NCBI GenBank assembly: GCA_001051155.2
Contig: JYIP02000003.1
Coordinates: 1,426,001-1,490,000 of the forward strand
DNA length: 64,000 nucleotides
From: Chrysoporthe austroafricana
Lineage: Eukaryota > Ascomycota > Sordariomycetes > Diaporthales > Cryphonectriaceae
Direction of reading: 5' to 3'
The stretch's first letter is position 1, and each line of letters starts with the position of its first letter. Below are positions 1,507 through 43,701 of the stretch, one piece after another. The position numbers and the translations under genes are program-made. The notes beneath the pieces are model-generated. The model was not told the DNA's origin and searched no databases. It worked only from the letters and a program-made list of their open reading frames with translations.

Positions 1507-4273
1507 GGTGAGGCTGTCGAGGTGTGGTCGGCCTGTCTACTGGAGATATACACGAGTCGTCGCGATCCTATATGACCTGAAGATAATATCTGGTAGTGCA
1601 CGAGACGGCCAGGGCCTAGCAAGGAGCTTCTTAGACGGGGAGAAGCGGGGCCAGGGAACCGCACCGCGCATGCAGTTCATCCCATCTTATGAGGGGACTA
1701 TCACGACATATTTATATGTCTCGCCGAATTGTTCGGATCGTGACCTCGACCCGAGCGTCGTGATGTCACCCTTGAGGCCGGATGGACGGGCCCTTAGCAG
1801 GGGCATCGCGCGGGGGAGTTGCCCTGAGATTGACCAATAGAACAAGCACGTGGAGAACAGTTGCATGCTCTCCTGCGGGTGTGGTCGCGCGAGCCTTCAC
1901 CACACGTGCTGAAGGAGGAGAGGGGTCCCTCGCAGAGGGGCGGTCGCCGAGGCGCTCTGGAAGAGGCGGTGGGAGCCAGCCATGTGTATCTGTTCCCGTA
2001 GAATATCTACAGGAAGGTCGGCCGAGATATGGCTGCCAGGCATGCTTCCTGTGACTCCGTGGTATCCAGTCGAAGGCGGGAGAGGCAGGCTGTCCGGCAT
2101 GTGATCGTCTGCAGAGATACTGAGGCTGCCCAGCGGTCCTTAGAAGAGGGCACGAGACCAATATTTTGTCTCGTAGGCGAGCGCAACGGTGAGGACCCTG
2201 GTGATGGTCCGGGCGATGGCCCTTAGCGGGGAGCCTGTTGAAGGTACCCATTTCGAGGCTGGAGGCCAACATACGCAATCAAGCCGCAGTGCCAGCTTCC
2301 AGACTCGATGTCCCATCCGGACAAGAAGCTGATCCAATACCCAGTCGGGTCGCAGTGCAACCTGGCGACAGCATCGTGAATAGCACGGATGGCGGCACGT
2401 CACACCACCAGATCGACCATCTGGCCACACACGGGTGCTGCACACCACACGATCCGGATGCTGCACACCGAGCCAACTAGGGCAAAGGGGTTTAGGGACA
2501 CGGGAGGACGTGGAGTATGCCGTGGTAGCGGCGATGCTGCCGTGCCATGCATGCGATGGTCGTAGGGACGAGGGCGGCGGTCTGGGGGGGTGGAACATTT
2601 CATGACAGGACAACCTCGTGGAGCGTGGAGCGCCTGAAAGAGTTTGGTATTGGCCCAAGGCCAGCGCGGAGTGGGGGGAACCCTGACCCCTGCACATGCA
2701 CCATAACCTTAACCGCAGGCTCTGGTGGGAGGAGAATTGGGGAGGAGGGGAGGGCGCTGGGGGTGGGAGAAGCCCAGAATCGAGCAGGCCAGGCAGGAGC
2801 CTGATCCCCCAAGATATAATATTCGAGAGAGCGGGCTCGTATTTTCTCACATCTTGGCTCAGATTCGGGATCATCGTCATCTACGTGTTGCACGTTCGGA
2901 TTCAGTCATGAGATCAGTCAGTTATCGAGGCGGGTCTGCCCTAGCGCGACCCTCGAGCCTCGCGAGACTTGAGGAAAAATCGAGGTGACTCAGGACGCAG
3001 TACTGCTGTCATGGTATAATGCCATCATGGATGGGAGGCGAAACCTGCTGCTACATGCACAAGGGAGCCAATTTGCACAGGACAAGCGCTGTTAGCAGGC
3101 TGCCGAGTTGACCAGTAAGTATTATACACACTGAGTACGTACTGCCACTGGGCTTGTGGGGCCATTGTGCTCTTCCGTGGAGTGACAGGTTCTGGGCAGA
3201 CAGCACCGACGAATAGATACACGTCGAGTGGTCGTTCGAGAAAAATGATGGCTCCTCCCCAGCTTGGAGCACTGTACGGATGACAGAGACGCATATGCCT
3301 GGGCCTCGACCGATGTGATCTGCCTCGACACATCAACATTGACTCATCACTCTGGCCGTAGCAGGACCATCTCCTCCCCACAGACAGATCAAGAGAAGCA
3401 GAGCAGTGGAGGTGGAGAATGGGCGTCCCTACATGGGCGTCTTCCCCTCGACCCCAGGACCAGGACCTTCCCCTGAGGACGATAGCAGCCCGCCATAGAG
3501 AGGCGAGGAAGAGGAATAAGAAAAGGATGAATAATTGCTCCCGTGCTGTGAGTGAAGTACTCAGTAAAGGCCTGTGCAGACTCTCGCCTTGGAAGACTGC
3601 CTTGTGGGGGGGTGGCGCGTGATTGGCCTGTATGTCAGACACACTGGGCCATGTGCACTGTTGGCCCTCGCGTGCCCTCGCGCTGCCATGCGACCCGCCC
3701 CGGCTAGACCCGATACGGTAAAACACCGTCAAGCTGGCTGACCTCCATTCAGTCAGGTTCTCTCGAGCCGACCTCATTCCGTCTCGAGCCGTACTGGCCA
3801 GCCCGTCCATCCATCTCCCACCCACAGACGATACGACCAGCATCACGACCATAAACACGACCATAGACTTCATTGCGATACCCTGTCAAGATTCATTCTG
3901 CATAGCCCCGGGACTGCGAGCGTCTCGGTGGACTTTAGACCGGCGACCGGCACTGGCACTGGACACCCAGGACCGGAGACTGGGACTCGGCCACGGTGCC
4001 TCGACCATACATCGCATCTTGGCTCGACTCGAGGTCCTTCGAAACACCTGCCCCGCGCGATCACTGCCCGGCGGCACGGCCACGTCCCGTCGCCCGAGGG
4101 TCCCGTGACCTCGCTCGTTGTACAAAAGCTCCACCTGACGCCCGTCAACCCCACGATCTGCATGAACGCCGCCGTCCTCTACGCTCGACACATACCCCTC
4201 CACATCCTGTGCCCCGTCTGGCGTCACTCAGCTGGCGCCGTGACATAGGGGTTTCCATCACAACGCTGGCACC
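1507..4273. other. Long intergenic region upstream of two divergent genes
   Basis: About 2.8 kb separating the minus-strand AIM6-like gene from the plus-strand SAPS gene, so it should hold both promoters. Open frames of up to about 280 codons occur on both strands. They overlap each other, have arginine/proline-rich shadow-like composition, and match no family I know. The last 600 bases before 4274 are C-rich, like a fungal promoter or leader. Confidence 0.45.
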
Positions 4274-7200
4274 ATGTTCTGGCGATTCGGCGGCTACGCC
4301 AACATCTCCACCATCGACACCATCCTCGACAAGTCCGACTTCACCCTCGAGGAGCTTCTCGACGAGAGCGACCTGATCCAGGAGCTGAAGCAGCACAATG
4401 CCAAGCTCATCGACTACCTCAGGGACGAGCCAGTCCTGGTCAACCTGCTGGAGTACGTCGTCGCCCCCAGGCTGGAGCCCGTCGCCGCACCCGATGCCGA
4501 AGACGACGACAACGAGAAGGGCAAGGGTCGGGTCCTGCCCTTCTCCAGGCCCAGGGCGTCGTCACGCGCCTCCGAGCCCGAGAACAGAGAGGAGGAGCTG
4601 GAGAAGAAGCGCAACAGGTACGCCTACGTCGCTGCCGAGATCCTGGCATCCGACAACTGGTCCATCTGCGAGGCCCTTCTCGCGAACAAGGCCATGCTGC
4701 GGAACTTCTGGAACTTCCTGCGGCGGGATACCCCGCTTGACCCGCTACAGGCCAGCTACTTCACAAAGGTGAACGAGGCCCTGTTCGATAAGAAGACCGA
4801 GGAGATGATCGAGCTGCTCAAGTCTATCGAGAACGCCGTCCCCGACATGCTGCGGCACGTGGACTGCCCTATGATCATGGATCTGCTGCTCAAGATCATC
4901 AGCCTCGAGCGGACAGAGGCTGGACAAGGCATTGTCGAGGTATGTTTGCTTGACCGCGGGGGTCCCCTTCCGCCGTGCTAACCTCGTCGTCTTCTACAGT
5001 GGCTCTACACACAAGACGTCATGCCCACCCTCCTTTCCTTCCTCGGCCCCGAACACAGCTGGGCGACCCAGACCTCGGCCGGCGACTTCATGAAGGCCAT
5101 CATCACCGTCTCGGCAAACGCCTCGCAAAATGAGCAGACGTGTATCGGCCCCAATGAGCTTACTAGGCAGTTGGTGTCGAAGCCCTGCGTCGAGCAGCTG
5201 ATAGCATACATGCTGGGCGGTGGGAACGCCCTGACCGTCGGCGTAGGCATTGTCATTGAAGTCATCCGCAAGAACAACTCAGACTACGATCCCGATGTCG
5301 GCGCTGAGGCCAATGCTGTCCCTTCCAGTCGAGATCCGATCTACCTAGGAACCCTACTGCGGCTTTTCGCAGAGAACGTGCCCGAGTTCATGAACCTGAT
5401 CATGAATGCTCCGGCGCAAAAGGCACGACTTGACTCTACATTTGGCAACAAGATTGAGCCCCTCGGCTTCGACCGCTTCAAGACCTGCGAGCTGATGGCA
5501 GAGCTCCTGCACTGCAGCAACATGGGCCTGCTGAACGAGGTCGGGTCGGAGGCGCTGATAGCTGCAAGAGATGCCGAACGCCAGCGGCTTCGGGTCGATG
5601 GCAAGCTGTCCGCTATGCGCGGCGAGGAGATGCCTTCGTCTGCTGATGACCTGACAATGAGGATATCGCACTCGTCGCCCGTCGATGAAGGTCGCCTTCA
5701 GATCACCAACATTTCGGAAGATGATGGCTTCGAAGAAGTGGCTCACAGCACCGAGATGACGGAGGATACGTCGCACGAGTTCGTGAAGGCCGAGGAAGAG
5801 ATACAATCCGGCCAGTCATCGTCATTCCTGGACAAGGACGACGACGACTTTGTGGATGAGCCCCTATCGTCACCTCGGCTCAATGTACACGATGACAAGT
5901 TAGGAAAGCCGCAGTTCGACGAACCAGACCTGGTCGTTGCGCCCCTTTCCCCATCCAAGCAGAGAGCCGCCGAGGTGGACGAGCTGCCGAGCGAGCCGCC
6001 CGCGGGTGAGGCGAAGGTCGAGGATCTGGTAGAAGACTTGCAGAAGTCCATGCTCCAAGACGAGCAGGCAACGCCGGAGTTGCAGGACACAAACACCGCT
6101 GGAGACACTAGCGAGGCTTCAAGCAGTACCGGCGTGGACACGCCTGCCGAGTCCTCAATGGTTGGCTCCGAGGCCAAGCCTGACGCGGCCGAGGCCGAGG
6201 CACCAGAAGCGACAAAACCTGCCGAGCTGGCCGTTGACGATGCCGAGAAGCCTGCTCCTCTGTTTTCACCATCCAAACCGGCTGCAGAAGATGGTGATGC
6301 TGCAACGGAGGAGCAGAAAGCCACGCCTGAGGCCGAAGCAAGTCAGGTGGCCGCAGAGTCGGTGGAGCCAGCTCAACCTCAGCAGGAAGCTGGCGACGCT
6401 TCCACGGCTGATACGAAGGAAGGTCCCACGGAGGTGGATCTGTCGAATCTGCAACCTGTTGTCGGCGACTTCCTGAAGATGCAATTTGTTGAGCACAAGG
6501 TTGTCCCAACGATCCTTTCATTCTTCTTCAAGTACCCATGGAACAACTTTCTGCATAATGTCGTGTATGATATCGTACAGCAGGTCTTCAATGGGCCCAT
6601 GGACCGTGGCTATAACCCCACCCTGGCAATCTCTCTGTTCGAAGCTGCCGACATTACGAACCAAATCATCAACGGTCAACGCGCTAGTGAGGAGTCGCAG
6701 CGGCAGTCAAAGACCCGGATGGGTTACATGGGCCACCTCACACTTATCGCCGAGGAGGTTGTCAAGTTCACCGAGCGCCACCCGCCGGAGCTCCTCAGTG
6801 AGACAGTCCTACAAAGGGTTATGGACCAGGAATGGATCAACTACGTCGAGGGCGCGCTCGCCGAGACCCGGGAACGTGACAATGCTATCCTGGGAGGAGT
6901 CCGGCCCGAGGTCGCTTTGAGTAATCGTCAAGCCGGCGGCCTCGCTGCAGTGGGACTAACCGGCCTTGGCGCGACGTTTAGTAGCTCCCAAGGCGGCGGA
7001 TCTAATGCCCTCGCCGAAGCAGGACTTAACGGCAGCCTAAGCGACATGGGTGGGGACGGAGGAGGAAACGGGATCGGACCTTTCGCCATCTCTGCTGGAA
7101 CGCTGATGTCTGGCTTTGGAAGCAGCTCTGACGAAGACGAGGACGAGGAGGCTGAGAACGAGGAGGACGTCAACAATGAGGTTAGTTCTTTCCTTGATCG

Positions 7201-7870
7201 CCGTCCTAGGAGGTACTCTGGTTTGTCTTTCGCGGGCCGCCCTGCGCCCCACTCTTTCATACGTTCCGTCAGCTTGAGTGCTGTGGATGGCAGCGACGAG
7301 GAGGATGAGTATGAGGATTCAAAGGTCGAAAATCCACCGAGACGATCCACACTGCGCATCTCTCGCACGACTGCAGATTGGAATAATGCGGCTGGAATGT
7401 CGGAGAACAGCGACGAGCCCATGCCACAGTCACTCGATGATAAGTACATTCCGGGTGGTCTGGACTTCATCGCAGCCAGCAGGTCCTGGTTTTCAGGAGA
7501 CCAAGTGTTCGAAGACGTGTCGTTGGATGATGATTCGGACACGTCAATGGATCACATCTCGCCTGATGAATGGGAGGATGTCGACGAGGAAGACCACGAG
7601 GCGGAGGAGGAGCAAGCAGAAGAGGACCCTGTCCGACAAGCGGAAGATGGGGAGCAACATACAATTGTCGTTGACCAAGTGGAAAGCGACAACCCCGAGA
7701 TATCGAGCACCAGCGGCCAGACCGAGAGACCGGACCCTTCTGCGCCTCCCGAGGAAACGCGGCAGAGCGTTGGAGAATTCCTGCTCGAGCTAGCGCGGGC
7801 TCGACATGAAGCGGAAACGGCCAAGACGGGTGGTCAACTTCACAGATCGCCAAATAGCTTGCAAGCATAA
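4274..7870 (+). CDS. SIT4/PP6 phosphatase-associated protein (SAPS family, Ekc1-like)
   Basis: Exons 4274-4939 and 5000-7870 are joined by a 60-nt intron (GTATGT...CTACAG), giving 1178 residues. The start MFWRFGGYANISTIDTILD and the following LDESDLIQELKQHNAKLIDYL are the hallmark N-terminus of the SAPS family. In yeast these proteins (SAP155/185/190; Ekc1 in fission yeast) bind the Sit4/PP6 catalytic subunit and direct it in cell-cycle and TOR signalling. The helical repeat region runs through about residue 430 and resumes around residues 700-850 (VGDFLKMQFVEHKVVPTILSFFF...WNNFLHNVVYDIVQQ). Between lies an acidic, low-complexity insertion. The C-terminal third is Asp/Glu-rich (SSDEDEDEE). 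The length fits filamentous-fungal members. No sign of disruption. Confidence 0.93.
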
Positions 7871-19959: not shown

Positions 19960-22900
19960 ATGGCGAAAGATTTCACCACGGCCGAGCGCTCCTCTACGCC
20001 CAAGCTCGTCACGAATCTAGACTCGGCGACTGCTGGTACCGACGGCCAACAGGAGAACGACCGGCCGAGTACAATCGAGGATCGCATTGTCAATTCCTAT
20101 GCCAGCTGCCTGTCAATACCACCGGACCGGCTCCGCGAGTCCCTTTCTGCAGATCGGGATGAAAATCAGTCCTCAGCAGGTTCCAACTCAAGCGACACGC
20201 CTTTGGCAAAGATAGAACGTCTGACTATCCAGACCAAGGTGTTGGCTGGTTCTAGGACGCTTGCCGACGTGGAAACTAAAGTTGTGCCGCCATCCGCGCA
20301 TTCAATGGCCGCCGAGGTCGTTGATATGGATACCTACGAGACCGAGTCCGACGTGACGGAGGGAGACCGTGATGGGCATGCCGCCGAGGAAGACGACGGT
20401 AGTTCCTCCGAGGATGATGTCGACATGCGGTCCGCTTCTATCATGATTGCGCCAGAGAAGATCCACCGCGCGAGCCGCATGGACTCAATACGGCTCAGGG
20501 CCGGGAACCAGGACTTTGACAAACACGTGCGCATGCCCAGTCTAGACGATCCACCACCGCCAATGCCGACGAACTCATTCGAGAAGCCTGGAGAGGTGGA
20601 GCTGTTCCTTGTCTCAGAAAGGGCCGTCTCTAAAGTTGTGATCCTCAAGCCACGAGCTGGGGTCTTCGAGGAGAAATTGGTCGCCTGTCTGACCCTCACC
20701 AGCATACCCCCGAGCGGGACCGATTTGTCCAAGGTCGATTTAATATCGCCAGCACAGATGTTCTTCGCAGGCACGCAGATTGCAACGCTGAAGCAGAACC
20801 TCAAGGACACCAAGCTTGTCGATGATAAGGCCATACCTGAAGTATGGATTCCGCTAGACAACATGCCTACTGTTCCCGAAACGGACAATATTGATCGGAG
20901 AAAGCTCCGGACATGGGTCCAGAATGCGAATCCGGACATATACGAGCGGGTGACGAGTATCGCCACGGACCAAACCCTGCAGCAACCAGCCAACGAGATG
21001 GAGAGGGAGGTGCAAAAACTTGTGGCGCGGGTGCTACATGTTCCTCAGGAGCAAGTGAGCATGAATTTCACATTTGGGTCTTTAGGTGGGGATGAGGCAA
21101 CAGCTATGGCACTTGTCACGAACGCACGAGTCGAGTCGATATTCCTAGAGAGCCACGAGATCCTGCACCACAACAACACCCTTGCCCATCTCGCGAGTTT
21201 GGCCACACAGCGGGGAGGTTTGGCCCATAAGTGGACCGCGGAGCAGGAGAGCAAGGCTATTGAGGGCGAGACGAGTCCAACCTCGACCTACTTCGACCTT
21301 TCACCGATGCAGAAACTCTATTTTAACACTAAGATGGGTGGCAACCTTTCGCTGCGCGACTCGGGTGACGGTAACTATAGGTTTAACTCGTCTCTTCTCT
21401 TCCGCGTCGCCAAGGGGTACAGTGTCCACGACATTTCTGCTGCCACGGACGCTGTTGTGGGACATCACGCAATGCTTCGCGCCCGGTTTGTCAACGTACA
21501 AGGCGAGTGGATGCAGCGCATATTACCAAAAGTCGACGGCTCATACTCTTTCATGCATTACACCATCAGCACTAACCAGCAGGTCGAGTCCGTTGTTCAG
21601 AATACCCAGGCGTCAATCAATGTCGAAGAGGGGCCTGTGTTCACCGTTGCGCATCTCCAGACCACGGATGGCCACCAGATGATCTATGTCGCCGCTCATC
21701 ACCTCGTTGTGGACGTGGCGTCGTGGCGGCTGATAATACAAGATATGGACGAGTTGTTGCAACATGGCAGTTTGTCGTCGCAGAGAGCGATGCCCTTTCA
21801 GAAATGGGCCGAGCTGCAGAAGCTTGACGCGCAGATGCCCTCTGGTGGCCTTCCCTTCGAGATATGTCCTGGTGATCTGGATTATTGGGGACTATTGGAT
21901 GCGCCGAACACATATGCCGATGCGAATGAGGCGAGCTTCTCGTTACACGAGGAGCTCACGTCCATCTTGGAAACAACATGCAATCAGGTGCTGAGGACGG
22001 ACTCCATTGATATTTATATCGCTGCACTGCTCCTCTCATTTGCTCAGACATTCGCAGAACGACGGATACCGGATGTATGGAATCAAGAGCATGGTCGGGA
22101 TCTGTGGAACAACGAAATCGATATTTCTGAGACAGTCGGGTGGTTCACATCTCTCTGCCCCTTGAACCAACAGATCAGTGGCAGCAGCGACTTCATCGAC
22201 GTTCTTCGCAGATTAAAGGATACCAGACGGGCAATACCTCACCGTGGCGCTCACTATTTCGCCAGCAAATTCTACTCAAACAATGACAGGAACGCGGACC
22301 TGGACTCCGCGCGACCTCCGTCACCTAACCCTCTCCAGATAGCGACTCGTGACTGGCCCATCGAAATACTATTCAGCTATGCCGGGAACATTCAGAATAT
22401 TGGCAGGGAGAACGGGGTTCTCGAGCAGATTGCATTGCCAGGGCGCACCCTCGATTCTCGCATTTCCGACATTGGCCCTGCGGTTGGCCGCATTGCTCTG
22501 TTCGAGGTCAACACGACGATTGATCAGGGTTCGGCGAAGATCAAGTTTCTATATAACCGCCACAGCAAGCATTTGGACCTGATTAAATCCTGGATCAGCA
22601 ACTACGAACATCTACTTCTCGAAGCCATCGGTCGTCTGCGATATGCAGAGCCTGAGTTGACTTTGGCCGATATCCCGCAGCTTTGGGCGACCGGCGTCAC
22701 GTATGAGGGGCTGGCTACGCTAAATAGGACTGTGGTGACCGAATTGGGACTGAGCGGCGTCAACGAGATAGAGGCTGTATATCCCGTGACGCCCGTGCAG
22801 CAGAGCATTTTGGTTAGCCAAGCGAAATCACTACAGTTCCCTGCTGGATGCGGGAGGAGGCACGGCGATGACAACGGCAACCAGTACATGACACAGCCCA

Positions 22901-25900
22901 CGAACAATGCGAATATGAACGCCTGCCATATTCATGTTATGTACGAATTTACGAGCCCGAACGGCGCTCCCGTGGACCTGGCGCGGGTGGTTTCTGCCTG
23001 GGATCAAGTTGTTGCTCATCACTCCGCATTAAGGACAGTGTTCATCGAAAGTGTCTCGGAGGAAGGCCTGTTCAATGCTGTTGTCTTGAAGCGATGGGCC
23101 CCAAATATGCTGTTCCTGGATGCGACGCCCAGTGAAGATCCGATCGACACGCTGAACAACCTTCCACCACTCACAGCTTATCCTGCAGCGAAGAGCGTGC
23201 CCAGACACAGGCTGACGGTCTGCCACTCTCCAATGAAGACAGTTGTCAAACTGGACGTGTCAGCTGCGCTGTGCGACATGATGAGTGTCAACGGGATGAT
23301 TGCGGATCTGAGGAGGGGATATGCCACAGGCAGGGCAATTCCAGTTACCAGTAGCGAGGCAGCGGTCTTCTCTTACTCTGGATACGTGGACATCATGCGC
23401 GGCCTCGACCGAGATAGAAGTATCGCCTGGTGGAAGGAGACGCTGGCAGGCATCACTCAGCCGTGCCTCTTCCCAAGACTGGACTTCTACTATGGCGGCG
23501 ATGACAAGGATCCGAGCAGGCCGAAGCGATACGACAATGTTCATACCGAGATTGCTGAGGTGGTTTCCCACAAGGTTGCAGAATTCTGCCGAGTACAGAA
23601 AACTACCACGGGCACAATACTGAGGCTAGCTTGGGGACTGGTGTTGCGCGCTGTCACGGGGAGCAGCGAGGTGTGCTTCGGGTACAGAGCCCCTGGACGG
23701 TCCGCGACGCTGGAGGGTATGAGATCTGCCGTTGGGTGTTTTGCGAACACAATCCCCGTGTCCTTCGACTTGTCCCCGTTCAAACCCCTGGCCATCCTGC
23801 TGAGGCAAATCGAGGACGGTTACAATGCCGCTCTACCACATCAGCATATCACCATGGCAGAAATCAGACATGCCCTGTGTGATGGCAAGAAGGGAGCTGG
23901 TGTCGATGTCCAGCTCTTCAACACGTGTTTTGCCTTCACCGAGGAACCAGCTGACCTGAACAGCCGCTTCACACAACCTACAACCTTGGAATTGCGGAAC
24001 GTGATGAACCACGAAACTACCGACTACGACCTCACTATAAACACGCGTTTTAGCAACGTCACAGGCCGACTAGTTGTTGACATTGGCCACTCGATCCTCT
24101 CGGAGACACAAGCTCAGAACATTACGAACACATTTGCCCGTGCCGTCACCGCCATCCTCCAGTGTGCTTCACCTGCGGCGCACATAGGTTCCCTCGATCT
24201 ATTCTCCGATCGCGACTACGCTCAGATTGTGGAATGGACTAATCCTGTCGACAGGGAGACACAGCAGCAGAGGTCTTTGCTGCACGAGCTTGTTTTCGCT
24301 CAGAGCATCTCACGTCCCGAATCTAAGGCTGTTTGCGCGCATGATGGCGACCTCACGTATCTGCAGATCGAGGTTCTCTCGCATCGACTGGCGCACGTTC
24401 TTCTCGAAGCGGGTGTCGTGCCTAACGGGAGCTCGAAGGCTGCAGTGCCAGTCATCCTCGACAAGTCCAAATGGGCACCGCTTGCTCTCCTCGCGATCCT
24501 CAAGGCTGGCGCCGCTTTCGTCCCGGTCGACGCAGATGAGATGGGCTTTGTTGCCAAGATTGCCGAACACCTTGGGCCAGCAAGCAAGGTCGCCATCGCG
24601 TGTGCGACTGCCGCCGAGGCTCTGGAACATGCCACTACTCCAGTTCCCTTGTTTGACCGTGTAATTTGTCTCGATGATGCACTCATGAAACGTCTCGAGC
24701 GCGAGGGGCCTCTTCCTGGACAGCTGTTGCCGCCAAGCAAGCCCGAAGACGTAGCCTGCGTCTTCTTCACGCCTACTTCGTCGCGATCTGTCCGTGGTAT
24801 CAGCTTCACGCATGCGTCATTGTCGACTTGTTTCCTCGCGCAAGGACCAGCGTGTGGGATTAACAACACTACTCGCGTGCTGCAGCTGTCTAGCTTCAAT
24901 GTCGATGTCGCCCTCTCTGAAGTGTTCACAACTCTCGTCAATGGCGGTGCGATGTGTATTCCGACGTCCAGAGACCGGTACAATGACTACACCGGGTGCG
25001 TGACGCGGTTCAGTGCCAATTGGAGCTACATGACGCCCTTACTTGCGCGGAAATTGAATGTGGAGCTGCTACCTACGTTAAAGACGGTCTGCTTCCGGAC
25101 ACGCGGATTGGATGAGGACACTTACGAGCCATGGAGAGGCCGAAAGAGAGTCGTTATGGCTTACGGCGCGCCGGATGTCTGTCCCCTTGGTGTCTCGTTC
25201 CTCGAGATTCACGGTCCACACCATCTCCGGGCTATCGGCCGACCCATCGCTGGCTCGGCATGGATCGTGTCTGTCGAAGACCACAGGAACCTGATGCCTG
25301 TCGGTGCAGTGGGCGAGATGGTGATTGAAGGTCCTACTCTGGGTAAGACATTCCGAAGGAGCAGTCTCGCTCCAGCAGAGGATGATGGCAAAGATTTGCC
25401 CGATACGCCCACCAGCCCTGGTCACAAGACGCCTTTCGTGCGAGGACACCAGCATCAGAAGAGCATCAGCACCATTGCGACTGAGGATACTGGTCAAGGC
25501 AAGAAGAGATATTATAAGACGGGCCACAGTGTGCGGTACATCGAGGGCGGCCTGATGGAATACGTCTCTTCCAAGCGGGATGATCTTGAGATCAATGGTC
25601 GCGTTGTCAATTTGGCGGAGCTGGAACAGCAGATTCGCCGTGCCCTGGGCCAGGGCGTTGATGTCATGGTGGAAGCGCTGGCGTTCAAGGGTGAACGTGG
25701 ACGACCCCCTACACTGGCAGCGTTCCTTGAGTTGGGTGGTGACGGAACCACTGCGATTCCACACGCCTTGGACCTGGCCAATCTCGGTGATGATATCAAA
25801 CAGCGCGTATATGTTGCAAAGAGACTGGTGAATAACGCATTGTCTGGAGTGGTACCGGACTTCATCATCCCCAAGATTTTCATCCCTGTTCGACACCTCC

Positions 25901-28900
25901 CGACAACATACTCGCTGAAGGTGAATCGACGAAAGCTGCAGAAGGTTATCAAGGGCTTGCCACGCGAGCAGCTGCTTGAGCTTTCGAAATTGGAGAATCC
26001 AGAGCGGGTGCCGGACATCAACGGCTCGAACCCGCTGCCGATGGGCGGACTGGCAGCGAAGATACGTGCTGTCTGGGCGCATGTATTGAACCTTGACGAG
26101 AACGCAATTTCCCTCGCCGACGGCTTCCTCAAGCTTGGTGGTGACGAGATATCTGCTGCAAAGGTGGTCGTTTGGTGCCGGAAAGCCAAGCTCCCTGCGA
26201 ACATCTCTGACCTCATGCGCGACATCTCACTTGGCGAAATTTGTCGCTCCAGCCCTCTTGATGTGCAGCCTAATCAAGCAATCGGCACTACTGAGCAGGA
26301 GGGAGGGATCCTGGACAAAGCGTTAGACAGCGCGATCGAGTCTATACAACAGCAACAGCAGCAGCAGCAGCAGCAGCAACAGGTCACTGCAGCCACCCAG
26401 ACTCTAACCAGCCCCGTTGCACTGATCACGCCGACGCCTCAGGTCATCGACAGGACATTCATCGATGGAATACTTGCGCCGAAGCTTCTCCTGGAGCCTG
26501 AAGTTATCCGTGACGTCGCGGAGGCCACGTCCACACAGGTTCGCTGCATCGAGACCGCCATGCTGACGCAAGGCCAACTGCGATCCTCACCGGCGTCACC
26601 GCATGGACCTGGTCTCGCGGACGTTACCTACTTCGTATTTCACTTCACCGCCGCCAGCTCAACGTCGTCTGTCTCTGCCCGCCGTATCGAGGAGGTCTGC
26701 CGCATCCTGACGTCCATCCATCCCATCCTACGAACTGCTTTTATCGCTCATGTTGAAGGGCAGAACCGTAAGCTTTATCAGGTTGTGCTGAGAAATTACA
26801 AGGCCGACTTCAAGCACATTCCGCGCGTGCAGAGTTGGCGACTTGGTGCAACACTAGAGAAGGAGATCAAGAGAGACCGTGAGACCTTGCTCACTCAATG
26901 CGATTTATTTGCCAGTCCGATTACGCGCTTCATCTTCCTGGACGCAGGCAAGACGTCGACACTAGTCCTCCGACTCTCTAAGGCACAATATGATGACGTC
27001 TCTATCGCACTCCTCGTCAAGGACCTGAGGAAGCTTTACGACGGCGGACAGAATCCGCCGCGCCGTCCCGGTTTCGCCGACTTTGTCCGCGAGGCTGCAC
27101 TTGCTCATGTCGGTGGCGAGGCAGAGCGTTACTGGCGTGGCCTGCTCGATGGCGCGGTTCCGACGCAGGTGGTGCGTCACACCAAGCCGCCGAAGCTGAC
27201 CAGCTCGGTTCGTACGCTCCGCGAATCGGTCTCGGTGAACACAATCGCCATGAGCTCGCTTGGAATTGGCTTCGACACAGTGCTCAAGGCCGCGTGGGGA
27301 ATGGTTCTTGCTACTATCTCGGGCACGCCTGACGTTCTTTTTGGTGAGGTTGTCGAAGGATGTCACTCCCGGATGCAGCAGCACCTTGGCCCCTCGAGTG
27401 TCAATCGTGGTGGCGTGCTTGGCCCTACATCAACAGTCCTGCCGGTGCGCATCTGCTTTTCGGATAACCCGACTAGCCCGCTGCACTTACTGAAGTGTGT
27501 GGCCAGCCAAAGATCCGCGGGCATGCCATACGAGAATCTGGGCATGCTGGATATTGTGGAAAAGTGCACGCCGTGGCCCTACTGGACACGCTTGAGCACC
27601 GTCGTGCAGCATCGGACCGATGCCGAGTTGCTGATGGACGGTAAGGCTAAGAGCTTTAGGCTGGGCGCTGCCTTGTGCAAGGTCAGTGTGATCGAAAGTG
27701 ATGTAATGGACATGCCGGATTTCTTGGTGCGGAGCCTCCTCAAAAATAAGCCGATCGCAGGTGCAGCTGCTTCAAATACGGCGGATAAACAAGCTGCTGA
27801 GACGCAGGCGAGATTGGCTGAAGGCGATGAAGTGTTGGAGGTGTCGGTGTCTTTCTGCGAGCAACGCGTCCCCGCCAATCTTGCACAAGAGGTCCTTCAT
27901 AAGGTTTGTGGTTTCGTGGGTCTGTTGACGGGCGTCAGTATCATGCAATCTATTGTGCCGACCGCGGCGCAGTACTCGGCTCTGGCGAAGCAGATTCCAC
28001 TCGCGAATACTATGTACGGAGGTAACCCAACCGCAGGACCTGCCGGCGTCACTTTCAACAACCCGTTCGGCGGCGGCTCAATTAGAGTGAACTTCGCACA
28101 GCTGGAGGCAAAAATGTCGCCGGACCAGGTCACGACCATTCAGTCAACTATCGAGGACGCTTGGCGTAGCACGCTTGATCCGAGAACCCTAGGTGTCCCA
28201 GAAGAGCACGTCACGTCTGCTGCATTCTATGATCTCTGGGGCTCGCTCATCCCCGCCGCTCAGCTGGCCGATTTCATCACCGATGCGATTCCGATGCGAC
28301 TGATCGGCGATCTCTCCACGAACCTCTTCAGCAACAACCTTGATGGCTTCTCGATCACGATGGAAGAGATCGTCGACAACCCGACCATGCTTGATCAGTT
28401 CCAGCTGATTGTCCGGAAGGCATTTGGTGGCGAAGGACGTGACAGACCCGGAGCCATCAAGACCAGGAGTAACAGCCTGGCGAATTCTGTGAGAAAGAGC
28501 AGCAGTCTCACCAATATGGCTGGCTCGATTCGCAGCAGTAGCCCAACTAATTTGGGCGGCGTCAACCGCGCGGGCACCATCTCCATACACGGCCCGTCGA
28601 AGTTAGGCCACAACAGGACGAGAAGTGACTCAACAGGAAATACAGGCGGATCGTCAAATGGTGACTCGCCTGCGATGGGCTCGGTGCCTGTCTTCCCTGC
28701 GCATCCTGCGGTTGCGCCACCGATCAATCATCATCCCGCACAGGCGTCAATGCGATCGCCTCCGCCTCGACACACTCGCAAAGGCAGTGATGCAAGCAAT
28801 GCTACCCACCACAGCATCACTACCGCGACGACAGCTGTTACTGCACTTGACAGTGCAGGCTTAGCGCCAGCAAGCATCATGAACACACCTCCCACGAGCG

Positions 28901-30390
28901 TCGGTAGTCCAGATCCGAGCGAGTTACCCGGCTCTGCAATCCATGGCCTCAAGCGTTCAAATAGCATCCGCCGAACTGAGGCGGGCCCGGAGTCGCCTGT
29001 CCTGGGCAATGTGAATCTCGCTACTAGCCCTCCTGTGGTGCAGACCGGGTTCGTCGCGGCTCGGAAGAAGTCCAACTTTGGCTTTGGGAGCAGCTTGCGA
29101 CGCATGGCCAGTAATGCTCTCAGACCTGGACTGCAGAACCACGGCCACAGTCACAGTTTCAGCGCTTCGAGCGGCCTGAAATCGGTTACCTCGTTGAACT
29201 CGTCGCTGAAGCCGCCTAAATCTTCCGGCTCAGACAGGGCCAGCCACAAAGACAAGGAGGTCGCGGCACCGCTCTCGCCTTGGGTGAGGGTGCAAAGTAT
29301 GGCCCCTCAGCTACCGCCTTTGTCACCGTTTACACCTGTCACGGACGATACATTCAGCCTGAATGGAAGCGTCAACACATCATCCGATGGCCAGAGGACT
29401 GGTGCATCGCCTGATCCCTCGCAGGACAGGACCAGCCGGAGTACGTCACCAGACTTGGTTCTGCAGCACACCGATGACGGAAAGGCTGGTCTGAGCGTGA
29501 GAGCTGACGAGGCCGCACAGCCGGCAAGAATCTCCGGGACTTTGGTAATGGATGAGCACGGCGAGCTGTCGCGGGCGGTGTCGTGCGAATCCCTGAAGGG
29601 AGGCGCCAGCGCCTCGCAAGGCGAGAGCACGGAGGTGTCCACTGAAGACGACGAGGAGGACGAAGACGATGAAGATACGCTCCGTGCCGAGCAAGCGCAG
29701 AAGCTCCTCGCCAGCGCGAACATTCAGGCACAGGATGGCCGAAGCAGCCCCGACCCGCAGAAGGCCACCAGACGAGCTCCAAAGCCAGAAGATCTCCCGA
29801 GCCCCAGCGCGGTTACGGAGACGTTCTACATGGAGGACGACGAGGGCTCCGAGGAGGAAGATGGCAGTCAGGCGCAGTATGACTCGTACGAGGAGTTCGA
29901 GAGCGCGCCTGCAACCCCGAAGCAGGGAGGCTCGAGGCCTACGACCACGTTGGGCTCGCCAGAAGCACAGACTCCGCCGCCTCAGAAAAAGGCCTCGGGG
30001 ACCCCTGGGTCCCCGAAACCGCAACAGTCGCCGCGGTACAGCGTCTTCCCGCGGGCCTCGCCCCAGCCCTCACCGCAATCCGCACGCACCTCCACGTCCA
30101 TATCGAAGCAGGCCGCGCCGGCACCACCAGCAGCCCAGCCGAGCGCGGCGCCCACCAGCGCGGACGCCCAGGACTTCGCGACCCTCGAGGCCGCCGAGAT
30201 GGATGATGTCGTCTCCCCGCTCACGCCAGTGGAGCGTGCGATGCTGTACAAGCAGCAAGGCTTCGGCCGCGCCCAGGGCAGGCTCCCCGCGGCCAGCAGG
30301 GTGGCGATGAACGTGAGCCCGATGACGCCGGGTTCGTACTTGCCACAGCAGCAGCACGGGCCGACGATGGGCGGCTTCCACGCTATCTGA
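19960..30390 (+). CDS. Giant degenerate nonribosomal peptide synthetase-like protein (pseudo-NRPS)
   Basis: One intronless frame of 3476 residues from the first in-frame ATG. Order: disordered acidic N-terminus (1-200); remnant of an adenylation C-subdomain ending IDRRKLRTW (about 230-325); carrier T1 with LGGDE, Glu379 in place of Ser; epimerization-like domain keeping HHLVVDVASW (580-589) and SETVGWFT; condensation domain where HHxxxDG reads SAALCDM (1101-1107); adenylation domain with TPTSSRSVRG (1604-1613) in place of TSGSTGxPKG, YGAPD (1735) and His1856 in place of Asp in the TGD motif; carrier T2 with LGGDE, Glu2063; poly-Gln; condensation domain with SKAQYDD (2340-2346), Lys in place of His; third carrier with LWGSLI, Leu2763 in place of Ser; then a Ser/Pro-rich tail (about 2820-3476). 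No carrier can be primed, so it cannot be a normal synthetase. The long open frame argues against simple decay. Role unknown. Confidence 0.9.
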   Translation: MAKDFTTAERSSTPKLVTNLDSATAGTDGQQENDRPSTIEDRIVNSYASCLSIPPDRLRESLSADRDENQSSAGSNSSDTPLAKIERLTIQTKVLAGSRTLADVETKVVPPSAHSMAAEVVDMDTYETESDVTEGDRDGHAAEEDDGSSSEDDVDMRSASIMIAPEKIHRASRMDSIRLRAGNQDFDKHVRMPSLDDPPPPMPTNSFEKPGEVELFLVSERAVSKVVILKPRAGVFEEKLVACLTLTSIPPSGTDLSKVDLISPAQMFFAGTQIATLKQNLKDTKLVDDKAIPEVWIPLDNMPTVPETDNIDRRKLRTWVQNANPDIYERVTSIATDQTLQQPANEMEREVQKLVARVLHVPQEQVSMNFTFGSLGGDEATAMALVTNARVESIFLESHEILHHNNTLAHLASLATQRGGLAHKWTAEQESKAIEGETSPTSTYFDLSPMQKLYFNTKMGGNLSLRDSGDGNYRFNSSLLFRVAKGYSVHDISAATDAVVGHHAMLRARFVNVQGEWMQRILPKVDGSYSFMHYTISTNQQVESVVQNTQASINVEEGPVFTVAHLQTTDGHQMIYVAAHHLVVDVASWRLIIQDMDELLQHGSLSSQRAMPFQKWAELQKLDAQMPSGGLPFEICPGDLDYWGLLDAPNTYADANEASFSLHEELTSILETTCNQVLRTDSIDIYIAALLLSFAQTFAERRIPDVWNQEHGRDLWNNEIDISETVGWFTSLCPLNQQISGSSDFIDVLRRLKDTRRAIPHRGAHYFASKFYSNNDRNADLDSARPPSPNPLQIATRDWPIEILFSYAGNIQNIGRENGVLEQIALPGRTLDSRISDIGPAVGRIALFEVNTTIDQGSAKIKFLYNRHSKHLDLIKSWISNYEHLLLEAIGRLRYAEPELTLADIPQLWATGVTYEGLATLNRTVVTELGLSGVNEIEAVYPVTPVQQSILVSQAKSLQFPAGCGRRHGDDNGNQYMTQPTNNANMNACHIHVMYEFTSPNGAPVDLARVVSAWDQVVAHHSALRTVFIESVSEEGLFNAVVLKRWAPNMLFLDATPSEDPIDTLNNLPPLTAYPAAKSVPRHRLTVCHSPMKTVVKLDVSAALCDMMSVNGMIADLRRGYATGRAIPVTSSEAAVFSYSGYVDIMRGLDRDRSIAWWKETLAGITQPCLFPRLDFYYGGDDKDPSRPKRYDNVHTEIAEVVSHKVAEFCRVQKTTTGTILRLAWGLVLRAVTGSSEVCFGYRAPGRSATLEGMRSAVGCFANTIPVSFDLSPFKPLAILLRQIEDGYNAALPHQHITMAEIRHALCDGKKGAGVDVQLFNTCFAFTEEPADLNSRFTQPTTLELRNVMNHETTDYDLTINTRFSNVTGRLVVDIGHSILSETQAQNITNTFARAVTAILQCASPAAHIGSLDLFSDRDYAQIVEWTNPVDRETQQQRSLLHELVFAQSISRPESKAVCAHDGDLTYLQIEVLSHRLAHVLLEAGVVPNGSSKAAVPVILDKSKWAPLALLAILKAGAAFVPVDADEMGFVAKIAEHLGPASKVAIACATAAEALEHATTPVPLFDRVICLDDALMKRLEREGPLPGQLLPPSKPEDVACVFFTPTSSRSVRGISFTHASLSTCFLAQGPACGINNTTRVLQLSSFNVDVALSEVFTTLVNGGAMCIPTSRDRYNDYTGCVTRFSANWSYMTPLLARKLNVELLPTLKTVCFRTRGLDEDTYEPWRGRKRVVMAYGAPDVCPLGVSFLEIHGPHHLRAIGRPIAGSAWIVSVEDHRNLMPVGAVGEMVIEGPTLGKTFRRSSLAPAEDDGKDLPDTPTSPGHKTPFVRGHQHQKSISTIATEDTGQGKKRYYKTGHSVRYIEGGLMEYVSSKRDDLEINGRVVNLAELEQQIRRALGQGVDVMVEALAFKGERGRPPTLAAFLELGGDGTTAIPHALDLANLGDDIKQRVYVAKRLVNNALSGVVPDFIIPKIFIPVRHLPTTYSLKVNRRKLQKVIKGLPREQLLELSKLENPERVPDINGSNPLPMGGLAAKIRAVWAHVLNLDENAISLADGFLKLGGDEISAAKVVVWCRKAKLPANISDLMRDISLGEICRSSPLDVQPNQAIGTTEQEGGILDKALDSAIESIQQQQQQQQQQQQVTAATQTLTSPVALITPTPQVIDRTFIDGILAPKLLLEPEVIRDVAEATSTQVRCIETAMLTQGQLRSSPASPHGPGLADVTYFVFHFTAASSTSSVSARRIEEVCRILTSIHPILRTAFIAHVEGQNRKLYQVVLRNYKADFKHIPRVQSWRLGATLEKEIKRDRETLLTQCDLFASPITRFIFLDAGKTSTLVLRLSKAQYDDVSIALLVKDLRKLYDGGQNPPRRPGFADFVREAALAHVGGEAERYWRGLLDGAVPTQVVRHTKPPKLTSSVRTLRESVSVNTIAMSSLGIGFDTVLKAAWGMVLATISGTPDVLFGEVVEGCHSRMQQHLGPSSVNRGGVLGPTSTVLPVRICFSDNPTSPLHLLKCVASQRSAGMPYENLGMLDIVEKCTPWPYWTRLSTVVQHRTDAELLMDGKAKSFRLGAALCKVSVIESDVMDMPDFLVRSLLKNKPIAGAAASNTADKQAAETQARLAEGDEVLEVSVSFCEQRVPANLAQEVLHKVCGFVGLLTGVSIMQSIVPTAAQYSALAKQIPLANTMYGGNPTAGPAGVTFNNPFGGGSIRVNFAQLEAKMSPDQVTTIQSTIEDAWRSTLDPRTLGVPEEHVTSAAFYDLWGSLIPAAQLADFITDAIPMRLIGDLSTNLFSNNLDGFSITMEEIVDNPTMLDQFQLIVRKAFGGEGRDRPGAIKTRSNSLANSVRKSSSLTNMAGSIRSSSPTNLGGVNRAGTISIHGPSKLGHNRTRSDSTGNTGGSSNGDSPAMGSVPVFPAHPAVAPPINHHPAQASMRSPPPRHTRKGSDASNATHHSITTATTAVTALDSAGLAPASIMNTPPTSVGSPDPSELPGSAIHGLKRSNSIRRTEAGPESPVLGNVNLATSPPVVQTGFVAARKKSNFGFGSSLRRMASNALRPGLQNHGHSHSFSASSGLKSVTSLNSSLKPPKSSGSDRASHKDKEVAAPLSPWVRVQSMAPQLPPLSPFTPVTDDTFSLNGSVNTSSDGQRTGASPDPSQDRTSRSTSPDLVLQHTDDGKAGLSVRADEAAQPARISGTLVMDEHGELSRAVSCESLKGGASASQGESTEVSTEDDEEDEDDEDTLRAEQAQKLLASANIQAQDGRSSPDPQKATRRAPKPEDLPSPSAVTETFYMEDDEGSEEEDGSQAQYDSYEEFESAPATPKQGGSRPTTTLGSPEAQTPPPQKKASGTPGSPKPQQSPRYSVFPRASPQPSPQSARTSTSISKQAAPAPPAAQPSAAPTSADAQDFATLEAAEMDDVVSPLTPVERAMLYKQQGFGRAQGRLPAASRVAMNVSPMTPGSYLPQQQHGPTMGGFHAI
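26347..26382 (+). repeat. CAG/CAA microsatellite encoding 12 glutamines
   Basis: Twelve CAR codons in a row (residues 2130-2141) in the linker between the second carrier domain and the last condensation-like domain of the NRPS-like protein. Likely length-variable between strains. Confidence 0.9.
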
Positions 30391-40175: not shown

Positions 40176-43100
40176 CTATATGCTTAACTGTATCCACGTC
40201 CACATGCGCATCGTCTCCTCCCGGCCTAGCGGCTGGACCGTCCTCATAGCCTCTGAAGCGGCATCCGCCCGCTTAGTATCGAACACCAAACTCAAATTCT
40301 CATGTTCTCCCGAATATATGCTCTTCCAGAGATGGAGCAATGGGCGGGCTGGGTGGTCATTGAGCTCAAGAGCAATCTCGAGACGGTGCAGCCAATTTTG
40401 AGGAGAGACAATCTGGATCTTTTGCCCGACTGTCAAAGTTTTGGCTGAATCTTCTGCTTCGTTCTCGTCAGGCGGCTTTACCGATGTCTCATCTGCGAGC
40501 CAGCCGACCATGTCCGACCACGTTGGTTCTTGGTGCGAATTCAAGACATGGTATACAGGTGTCTTCTGGTACTTAGAGCCACGGGCCGGCCGTTCCAAAT
40601 TCTGGTTGAAAGAGATGTCCAAGACAGCTCTCGCGGCCACATCGGCAGGTAGCCAGCTGAGAAGCTCATCTGCCAGATCTGGGAGGCAGCCTGTGATCTT
40701 TGAAGAAGAGAGCATGATTGGGTATGCCTCTGTTGTGTTCCAAACCCCGTGCTTGTTTCCACACAGCTGGCCGACACGGATGATGACAATGGGTGCCGTT
40801 TCATCGGCGGGAAGAGTGCTATGGATTATGGTGGTGGGCATAGAGAAACTTCCGCCCACCTTCGCCGTGGTGCAGATATTTTCCGCCACCCATTTCGATC
40901 TGGAGTAGCCGAGGGGAGACGCATCCTCCGGCTCGGAGCTGAGTGTCTCTAGTATTGGGTAGCCGCCAGTACTAGCTGAAGAAACAGCTGCTGTCGACGA
41001 TATGAAGACGAATCGGGCTGCCGAGCCACCAGTAGCATCTCTCAGTTCTAAGAGATTGCGCAGACCGGTCAGTTGATCTTCGAAAGACTTCAACTTGAGA
41101 CTAAAGTTGACCGGCCATGCGGAGTGGATGATCATTGTGGCCTGGCTGGCGATTTGATTCCAGTCGGCCTCCGCAAGGCCAAGCCTGGGCTCGGAGATGG
41201 CACAGGGCATACAGGCAAGTCTTCGGGCTTTTTCATGCTCAATATTCACGCTTTCTAGTCCCCGTGATTTGAGTGATTCTGCTATACGCTGGAGTGCATC
41301 CTCGGAGCTCTGAGCTCGGACCAGACAGAAGACCCTCGAGACTGTCGAATCCTGGAGGAGCAGATCCAGGATATGGGCTCCTAAGAAGCCGGTAGCACCT
41401 GTGAGAACAACAGCACGCTCATTCTGGTGATCGAACGACCCAGTCGGTGACTGTATAGAATGCCGATACTCCTCAACTAGGTCCAACATAAGCTGTTCCT
41501 CAGAGGTCTCCTCTTCGCCGGCACCGTTAGGGACCGCCGTATCTGCTGAATTTCGACATCGCAAGATGTAACTCGACAGCCGATCGATAGAACCCTGGTC
41601 GTAAATGATGTTGAGTGGCAGAATCGTGTCCGCCCCGAAGAAGGCCCTTGAGATTCTCCTTCTAAGCCGCGAGCATGCAATCGAGTCTACGCCCTGCGCA
41701 AACAGATCCCTCGTAGAACTGACATGTCGTCCAAGAACATCGTCGAAGAGCTTTGTAAGCTCGTCCAGGACTTCGCTGTCAGGAACTTCGGCGTTGTGGT
41801 ATTCCTCTGGATTGCCCTCCTCTCCGTATGCCTCCGCAATTTCACCTGCAAACATTCTTTCAGCTTGCCGTCTCAGAATTGTACCCTTGCTACTCTTCGG
41901 TAACAGAGCGGCTTCGCTGCTCTTGTCCCTAACAATGACAATACTTCCTCTTCCTATTTTGGCGTGGCCTTGCGTCTCGTTGTTCATCTTTTCAATCGTA
42001 GGCCACACGTCATTGACGACTTGTTCATTGTTGACATACCCGACGCCCCATTTAGGAATCAGCAGCAGACCAGGAGCCTCTCGTCCTGTGCCAAAGACCA
42101 TGGCATCTCCCAGGATCTGCTTTCCCACCGTCGAAGCCAGCAGCTCGCCTTCCACAGGAGCAGGGTTGAACTTCTTCCCGTTCAAAAGCGTGATCTGCGC
42201 ATCCACCCTGCTATGATACCGCCAGGCGTTTGAAATAGTAGGATGCCGTTCGAACAAGTCTGCCGTTGCAAACGACCCGTCTGGCCTATTGGTTTTGCCC
42301 CTATGCGGCCACCCGGGCTTCACCACAAATTCGAAGAGCTGAGGACCAATCTCGCTTTCTTGTGGGCTCTGAAGCTCAAAATCGTAGTATTCTGGCTGCA
42401 GGGAAGGGTCTGCCCTCAGCCATGACCAGTCTTGATCTGTAGCGTAATCTCTGTGAGATGAAAGCAGGAAGCCACACTCGGCACTTCCAAAGCGTGAGAC
42501 GAGCCTGACATCGTTGGAGACGAGATCATCGCCCAGTGACGGGGGGAGAGCTGCTCCACCAACTCCCACGAGGTCCATCTGCTGCAGCAGGCTCATGCCT
42601 GAGGCGGGGTCATCGGATGAAGACTCTATGATCAACATTTGTAGGACATAGGGTACCGAGGTGAAGTACTTCGGAGGGCATGCACCGTGTAGATACGCAT
42701 TTGCGCGGTCGACCGCTCGGAGGACATTTTTCGCCGTGATGGGCTTTGTGCCCGGGAACAGGTGAATAGTCGCGCCGCTTGACCACGCCCGGAAGCAGTC
42801 TGCGATGCCACCGTGATACAAGGGTGTGGTAGAAAATGTTGCATGAGTATCTCCACCAGGAAGACGCGGAAGGACGCCAACTACTGCGTAGTGCGTCTGT
42901 GGAATCGGCTTCGGCAGGCCGGAGGAGGTGCCGGAAGTGTGAAAGAGGTAGGCAACTTCGCTCGGGTGGGGATTCGCAGTGACTGCGGTCGACGGAGAAT
43001 CTGACTTAAGATTGTGCAGTACGTGGCTAACATTGATAGCGAGGATGCCACTCTTTAGTTTTGTTGCGGCGTCATAATTGCGAGCATCTGCAAATACGAC

Positions 43101-43701
43101 CGAGACGTTGCAGGTGGAGCAAAGATGCTTGATGGCGTTTCCCTCCAGTTGTGGACTGTGAATGTCAAGACCCGACTTCATTGTCATAACTGGATCGAGA
43201 CAACTACTTACGCTAGAAGCATCACAGATACGCCCAATCTCATCAGACCTAGCCACGTTACGATGAATTCGGGGGTGCTCGAACAGAGCAAGCCGACGGT
43301 TGAGGAACCAGAACGGCCAGCTATTTGTATCCGTCGACGGAGCCGTACCGCGGTCGCCAGAGAATAATCTCGTAGTTCACGATACGTAAAATCTGGACCC
43401 GGTGGTCAGCCGGCTGACTGCCCACGGCATTTCCTCTTCTTGGCCTACCGGACTTCATCTCCCGCCCTTCGTCGTTATAACAACCACCGGGGAAGTTAAT
43501 AGCCGGTCTCTGCCGCAACTCTTTCGCCTGCTCGTCTATGAGATGATTGACCGTATCAAAGGGGTGTGGGTGCTGCGCATTCCATCTTGCTGCTTCGCCG
43601 AGCGTGCATGTGAAATATGTGAGGTTTGTCTCAGACGTCGCGTCGGCCCCTTTGTTGTCGTCATTCCACTTGTGGACTTGGAATCGCACTTGCTTCGACA
43701 T
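40176..43701 (-). CDS. NRPS-like carboxylic acid reductase (A-T-R)
   Basis: Exons on the minus strand are 43701-43488, 43392-43212 and 43155-40176, giving 1124 residues (a Met at 43752 is an alternative start). The two 5' introns are supported by continuous family sequence: HPFDTVNHLID...AINFP|DFTYRELRDYSL and VTWLGLMRLGVSVMLLA|PQLEGNAIKHL. The adenylation domain has HTSGTSSGLPKP (about 204-215) and the catalytic Lys near 555 in SSKGTILRR. The carrier domain has GVDSI with the phosphopantetheine Ser623 intact. The reductase domain has GATGFLG (718-724) for NADPH and Tyr882/Lys886 in YSRSK. It should activate a carboxylic acid with ATP, load it on the carrier, and release it reductively as an aldehyde. 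Head-to-head with an aldo-keto reductase, which suggests a shared pathway. Substrate unknown. Confidence 0.92.

Follow-up and report, generated by a model that had tools for sequence, protein, structure and literature searches.

One of the closest described counterparts of the gene considered here has been catalogued among NRPS genes. FGSG_10523 of Fusarium graminearum is listed as 'NRPS 3' and as not expressed in the wild type or the kmt6 mutant (table 2 of PMC3814326). On the assumption that the same numbering applies, NRPS3 occurs in ten of ten genomes of the F. solani complex (PMC10455376) and is widespread in the F. incarnatum-equiseti complex, where it is placed in the EAS subfamily and does not figure in the set of genes given as pseudogenised (PMC6480918). 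The parts of these inventories available to us list it alongside the other NRPS genes without any mention of inactivity.

A single gene of Scedosporium apiospermum, SAPIO_CDS8684, is described as encoding a protein of 2,708 amino acids with the order E-C-A-C, 'surprisingly' without a carrier domain, and is annotated as a pseudogene; it scores 45–49% against Colletotrichum and Verticillium proteins, and a sequence filed under Aureobasidium pullulans is 94% identical, with a carrier domain that Pfam did recognise (PMC6737921). Compared by description only, SAPIO_CDS8684 very probably belongs to the family reported here. The accessible part of an account of the Ceratocystidaceae describes two NRPS genes, both of siderophore type (PMC6563098), so that a gene of the present kind may be dispensable.

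Gene organisation and surroundings

The gene lies within a 64,000-nucleotide stretch of Chrysoporthe austroafricana DNA, the window. A first-pass annotation had claimed a frame of 3476 codons free of stops, and this is confirmed, from an ATG at 19960 to a stop codon ending at 30390. The encoded order is T0 remnant, A remnant, T1, E, C, A, T2, CT-type C and T3, followed by a tail thought to be disordered (Table 1). Pfam recognises three condensation stretches, one AMP-binding stretch and two carrier stretches. The T0 remnant and the epimerization (E) domain had been overlooked.

Table 1. Features of the pseudo-NRPS gene, in window coordinates
Feature	Position	Strand	Residues	Remarks
Pseudo-NRPS gene	19960..30390	+		3476 codons; intron not seen
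T0, N-terminal carrier remnant	20065..20289	+	about 36-110	GGDS loop gone in lineage; boundaries by eye
A-domain C-terminal remnant	20587..20964	+	about 210-335	Intact giants align collinearly from residue 211; NIDRRKL at 310
T1 carrier	20992..21204	+	345-415	Glu379 for Ser at 21094-21096; predicted fold, PCP-E match
E domain	21277..22674	+	440-905	HHxxxDxxSW at 580-589; Gln709 (22084-22086) for EGHGR Glu; Ser806 for FNY Asn
C1 condensation domain	22912..24228	+	985-1423	Ala1102 for second His
A domain	24277..25959	+	1440-2000	P-loop degenerate, 24769-24798; His1856 for A7 Asp; Ser1871 for A8 Arg
T2 carrier	26047..26259	+	2030-2100	Glu2063 for Ser
Terminal fungal CT-type C	26542..27639	+	2195-2560	Lys2341 for catalytic His; best solved fold TqaA CT
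T3 carrier	28120..28359	+	2721-2800	Leu2763 for Ser; adjoining Ser2762 conserved
Ser/Pro/Ala-rich tail	28540..30387	+	616 residues long	Thought disordered; VSPLTP motif near end

AlphaFold models, each made from the window stretch with 39 of the 120 first-search homologues, show the anticipated folds, with a mean pLDDT of 83.3 for T1-E, for which the best solved matches are the PCP-E didomains of TycA and GrsA, and 78.7 for T2-CT-T3, which is matched best by the CT domain of TqaA. The tail is mostly about 600–700 residues long in Diaporthales and up to about 330 in the other members sampled. Of the Diaporthales tails of more than 60 residues, 37 of 37 carry a VSPL motif; the figures are 44 of 83 for the remaining first-search tails and 28 of 77 for those of the second search. 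Glutamine codons form a run of 12 (26347–26382) in the stretch that separates T2 from CT.

A biosynthetic cluster around the gene was considered and rejected; 20 flanking frames were scanned, 14 have a Pfam match, and with one exception none is an obvious NRPS partner. The exception, about 10 kb away, is an NRPS-like frame of A-T-R type on the reverse strand (40179–43376) that combines an AMP-binding, a carrier and a NAD-binding (reductase) domain, the carrier serine being kept (GVDS). Elsewhere in the window, both on the forward strand, are two adjoining open stretches encoding a SIT4 phosphatase-associated (SAPS) protein (4244–7867) and two adjoining cupin stretches, perhaps one bicupin gene (48910–50112). 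Scans for tRNA genes and Rfam families gave no hits. The idea of a close paralogue elsewhere in the genome was likewise rejected, as E-domain and T2-CT-T3 queries gave at best 23–31% identity over parts.

Catalytic residues across the family

A first search for homologues, at E ≤ 0.001, yielded 484 proteins, and a second, with a Hypocreales member as query, 1105 matches; the best 120 of each were used, and relatives were assigned to orders by inference from the names given. The best 120 of 484 include Diaporthales members (Cryphonectria, Cytospora, Diaporthe, Gnomoniopsis and Discula) with 69–87% identity to the window protein over 90–100% of residues 200–2850, proteins of Sordariales, Magnaporthales, Coniochaetales, Glomerellales and Microascales at about 36–48%, and those of Xylariales, Lulworthiales (Zalerion) and one Hypocreales at 34–37%. 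Neurospora intermedia and N. tetrasperma are represented among them; the Neurospora gene NCU04531 may be the orthologue. The best 120 of 1105 add Fusarium, Claviceps, Metarhizium and others, including FGSG_10523 (P0288); this protein is 49% identical to the Cosmosporella member P0121 over 92%, and the family is thus homologous to Fusarium NRPS3. FGSG_10523 differs from the window protein in being without T1 and in having glutamine at the E-domain histidine. Some database records name members 'synthetase 12' instead. No named member from outside the Sordariomycetes was seen among the matches listed, many of them unnamed entries, and the sequence filed under Aureobasidium pullulans, mentioned above, is a caveat to this; rarer states and members from other classes may escape samples of the best 120 of 484, 120 of 1105 and, for a longer query, 120 of 223.

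Seven core residues, namely the three carrier serines, the E-domain glutamate, the histidines of C1 and CT and the A7 aspartate, were scored in 194 near-complete sequences out of 208 aligned, 14 short ones being left out. None of the seven is kept in 177 members, one in 14 and two in three (P0104, P0079 and P0086), two being the maximum. Taken singly, the C1 histidine is intact in 12 of the 194, the T2 serine in three, the A7 aspartate in one, and the E glutamate, CT histidine and T3 serine in none; the T1 serine is found in four, with the caveat that 67 sequences are gapped there and that one of the four, P0289, is doubtfully aligned. The T1 column is absent altogether from 78 of 87 second-search sequences, mostly of Hypocreales. 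Many relatives with the same losses are proteins of about 2400–3600 residues. Comparison with relatives at the named positions, the check that the first-pass annotation had proposed, thus shows losses common to the family. Among 12 stretches taken from further NRPS genes in this assembly, ten carry a canonical carrier motif (L044 and L045 are those without) and ten a canonical A3 motif, as judged by patterns that sought canonical forms only. With 194 near-complete relatives sharing the loss, chance or misassembly is not the explanation.

At the carrier domains the serine is replaced by Glu379, Glu2063 and Leu2763, as had been claimed, and the corresponding position of T0 is never serine in the 81 of 121 sequences with a pattern match, the window protein being among the 40 without one. 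The three carriers differ in how the site behaves. It is acidic at T1 in 110 of 121 sequences, drifts freely at T2 (95th rate percentile) and is hydrophobic and slow at T3 (16th percentile); the losses need not have been simultaneous or have had a single cause. That at T3 was ruled out as a special feature of the family, since the last carrier of otherwise canonical large proteins reads LGGDII or SGGDLI (P0123, P0127 and P0128; the pattern matched in three of seven scanned).

The E domain retains HHLVVDVASW, which agrees with the HHxxxDxxSW of active epimerization domains, and the second histidine is kept in 162 of the 194 near-complete members, although it is replaced in 28 of 73 aligned second-search sequences, including three of the four Fusarium sequences inspected. 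The motif had suggested an intact, active domain. This was dropped given the glutamine (Gln709) in place of the EGHGR glutamate, a residue absent from all 194 members but found in every one of 29 E domains from 11 large fungal proteins and in five of five bacterial ones. Alignment to the solved TycA E domain sets Gln709 on the EGHGR glutamate and confirms the register; in one TycA structure (9bfg) the position itself reads alanine. Glu710, one place past the usual glutamate, is found in 120 of 121 sequences and Arg713 in all 121. The asparagine of the FNY motif is serine or threonine in 114 of the first 121 sequences and is asparagine in 49 of 73 aligned second-search sequences. On these residues we think the domain inactive, though the shifted Glu710 could serve.

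In both condensation domains the second histidine of HHxxxDG is lost, at Ala1102 and Lys2341 as first annotated. The first histidine is likewise missing (Ser1101 and Ser2340). However, serine is normal at this place in C1 of intact relatives (all 12 segments taken from six giant synthetases, described below), and R[LI]SHAQYDG is the reading of the terminal CT in five of five intact giants aligned, so only the second loss is informative. The 12 members that retain the C1 histidine are all named Colletotrichum, and two of them also have serine at T2.

The adenylation (A) domain has TPTSSRSVRG at residues 1604–1613, as reported, where TSGSTGxPKG is expected. On the ATP side this P-loop is lost, the A7 aspartate has become histidine, the A8 arginine serine, and GGE reads RTR. 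Across the family the A8 arginine is kept in none of 194 near-complete members, and the A3 loop has at most seven of nine canonical letters, with two to four in 150 of the 194. The 31 A domains used for comparison were picked by their A3 motif and agree there by construction; A7 and A8 are independent of that choice. Residues of the A5 Tyr323 and Glu327 type serve ATP and metal. The former is tyrosine and the latter aspartate or glutamate in 121 of 121 sequences, so the division between a lost ATP side and a kept amino-acid side is not clean.

The amino-acid pocket is nearly fixed. With numbering that we take to be that of GrsA, Asp235 is present in 207 of 208 sequences, Tyr278 in 204, Phe301 in 208, Pro330 in 202, Leu331 in 205 and Lys517 in 195, whilst positions 236, 239, 299 and 322 vary. 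In the window protein the retained residues are Asp1649, Tyr1690, Phe1712, Pro1742, Leu1743 and Lys1987. The mean rate of the ten pocket positions is 0.25 compared with 0.76 for the A domain (P = 0.00015, 20,000 random draws from the whole domain), some slowness being expected because the pocket adjoins slow motifs. The pocket is the most specific clue to function, and could point either to a ligand or to a packed core; the fixed residues can be core packing, and Tyr278 and Phe301 may fill the pocket.

Constraint and relation to intact synthetases

Site rates were estimated from 120 sequences, P0103 being dropped. The folded domains (0.74–1.08) are slower than the linkers, the A-domain loop and the region after T3 (1.27–1.99). 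Mean values are 0.78 for T1, 0.83 for E, 0.92 for C1, 0.74 and 0.83 for the two parts of the A domain, 1.08 for T2, 0.76 for CT, 0.93 for T3 and 0.97 for the A remnant, compared with 1.27 after T3, 1.40 and 1.99 in linkers and 1.69 in the A-domain loop. The family forms a clade of 195 tips with support of 0.994. Mean root-to-tip distances are 0.80–0.93 in Diaporthales, Colletotrichum and Xylariales; the window copy, at 0.912, is not accelerated relative to P0002 (0.951), P0003 (0.926) and P0005 (0.930), which argues against a fresh pseudogene. Members from the second search, mostly Hypocreales with some from other orders, are faster (mean 1.53, 75 tips). As a group they are not monophyletic (181 tips for 75), a result owed at least in part to the proteins from other orders among them.

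The nearest large relatives, among the best 120 of 223 matches to the longer query, are giants of 6.8–7.9 kaa (P0123–P0132, about 2000–2900 bits), which from their architecture are presumably of the Pes1/ChNPS4 type; two Aspergillus proteins (1383 and 1268 bits) and then bacterial proteins (best 650) follow. Over T-E-C-A-T-C the giants align collinearly to the window protein at about 25–30% identity. Their canonical motifs run A-T-E-C-A-T-C, A-T-E-C-A-T-C, A-T-E-C-T-C-T, though in some of them the patterns missed single motifs. In 12 of 12 segments from six giants the serine, histidine, aspartate, arginine and E-domain glutamate are intact at the matching places (P0103 and P0037 were dropped from this comparison). 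Like the window family, the giants lack the serine of the last carrier, in the three where it could be seen; unlike it, they have canonical catalytic motifs everywhere else.

Collinearity and a tree of E-C units both indicate a shared E-C-A-T-C lineage. In that tree, which holds 22 of 121 family sequences, the family is a 100% clade joined at 88% to the three E-C units of the giants, themselves a 99% clade. A tree of E domains alone differs, in that P0134 of Aspergillus pseudoustus is the partner of the family there (89%). That tree still included P0124_E1 and P0132_E1, two false pattern matches removed only afterwards, and P0133 was excluded from the E trees. In view of this difference, the family is likely, not certainly, sister to the giants. 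On the better tree it appears to have split off before the giants tripled their E-C units. Coniochaeta sp. 2T2.1 has both kinds of protein, which makes them paralogues. Each is present there in two versions (P0076 and P0078, P0130 and P0131), as if from two haplotypes or assemblies. A search with E domains found no giant in the C. austroafricana genome, where the best match elsewhere scored 38 bits.

Interpretation and comparison with known systems

We consider, with a probability of roughly 0.7, that the gene is one of an ancient family of pseudo-NRPSs that make no peptide and act as a non-catalytic platform for binding partners, possibly with a ligand in the A-domain pocket. The sequences show a stock shared with the large, motif-intact A-T-E-C-A-T-C synthetases of fungi and the loss of the residues needed to activate an amino acid (A), to tether it (T0–T3), to condense (C1), to release by cyclisation (CT) and, very probably, to epimerize (E), whilst the domain folds and the amino-acid pocket were held under constraint in all lineages sampled. 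Peptide would no longer be made, and the dead domains would bind partners and perhaps a small ligand. The first-pass annotation had already proposed a pseudoenzyme, and losses common to the family, folded domains slower than linkers and a window copy that is not accelerated support this; catalytic residues are gone and the protein is conserved. The pattern that it had named as telling against a pseudoenzyme, canonical orthologues beside a relaxed window copy, is not what the family shows. The scaffolding, signalling or regulatory roles it suggested are conjecture. Set against retention are the faster second-search members, most of them without a T1 column, the listing of FGSG_10523 as not expressed, the pseudogene annotation of the probable Scedosporium member and the two siderophore-type genes described for the Ceratocystidaceae.

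It is possible, if on the unlikely side, that the A domain is a sensor of an amino acid or related ligand, binding it without ATP and reporting through the dead assembly line. The near-fixed pocket beside a lost P-loop, A7 aspartate and A8 arginine is what such a sensor might look like, but Tyr278 and Phe301, both bulky, may block the pocket and the A5 residues are kept as well. Similarly doubtful is a fuller version, in which an NRPS disabled and fixed early in the Sordariomycetes became an ATP-independent sensor of amino acids or related small molecules, its ATP-binding and tethering parts discarded, its pocket frozen in every lineage sampled and its dead carriers and C domains transmitting or scaffolding the signal. 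An E domain that still works in trans as an epimerase or racemase, on the carrier of another protein or a free thioester, with the rest as scaffold, is improbable. HHxxxDxxSW with its second histidine, Glu710, Arg713, the FNY asparagine of many second-search members and the PCP-E didomain fold would suit it; the EGHGR glutamate missing from every member and replaced by Gln709 in the structural alignment, the serine or threonine of most first-search members at the FNY asparagine and the second histidine lost from many second-search ones argue the other way. That a product is still made by non-canonical residues, with Ser2762 of T3 serving for example as a displaced attachment point, or with carriers in trans, is very improbable. 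Ser2762 is kept in 112 of 121 sequences, P0104 has serine at both T1 and T2, and the Colletotrichum members with the C1 histidine could be cited in its favour. However, Ser2762 is alanine, threonine or cysteine in 32 of 208 sequences, no member retains the CT histidine, and from the state of A7 and A8 substrate activation is not expected in any member.

The lost catalytic residues, the absence of the T1 column from most second-search sequences, the reported silence of FGSG_10523 and the annotation of the probable Scedosporium member as a pseudogene might instead point to a recent or decaying pseudogene. This is highly unlikely and was rejected, given an open frame of 3476 codons, many relatives of about 2400–3600 residues with the same losses, constrained domains and no acceleration of the window copy. 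Sequencing or assembly error is a negligible prospect; nothing was found in its favour, independent proteins share the same states, and the canonical motifs in other NRPS genes of the assembly led us to reject it. Database names and gene inventories call the gene a peptide synthetase in many fungi and so imply a product for a protein unable to make one by a known route. If it is retained for another job, then a whole assembly line and not one domain alone is open to repurposing, and the protein would be among the largest pseudoenzymes known to us.

The first-pass annotation knew of no described system of this kind, a claim that holds in part. No paper describing a conserved, inactive NRPS family was found in a search outside which most subscription papers lie, and the main texts of PMC4198257 and PMC5996196 do not mention the gene; accounts of Pyricularia, Hypoxylaceae and Clonostachys gave no lead in the passages available to us. 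Against the claim, the Scedosporium E-C-A-C gene without a carrier is in print and the Fusarium member is catalogued as an NRPS. As far as its accessible text goes, the 2019 Scedosporium report (PMC6737921) covers a single gene and not a family-wide loss; what is new is the family-wide pattern.

The X domain of glycopeptide NRPSs offers a parallel. It is inactive and recruits other enzymes. In the part of the literature available to us it is described as a C-type domain that reads HRxxxDG (PDB code 4TX2, PMC11546977), so the likeness lies in a C fold with an altered catalytic motif. The X domain, however, is one domain within a working synthetase, whereas the window protein is wholly dead.
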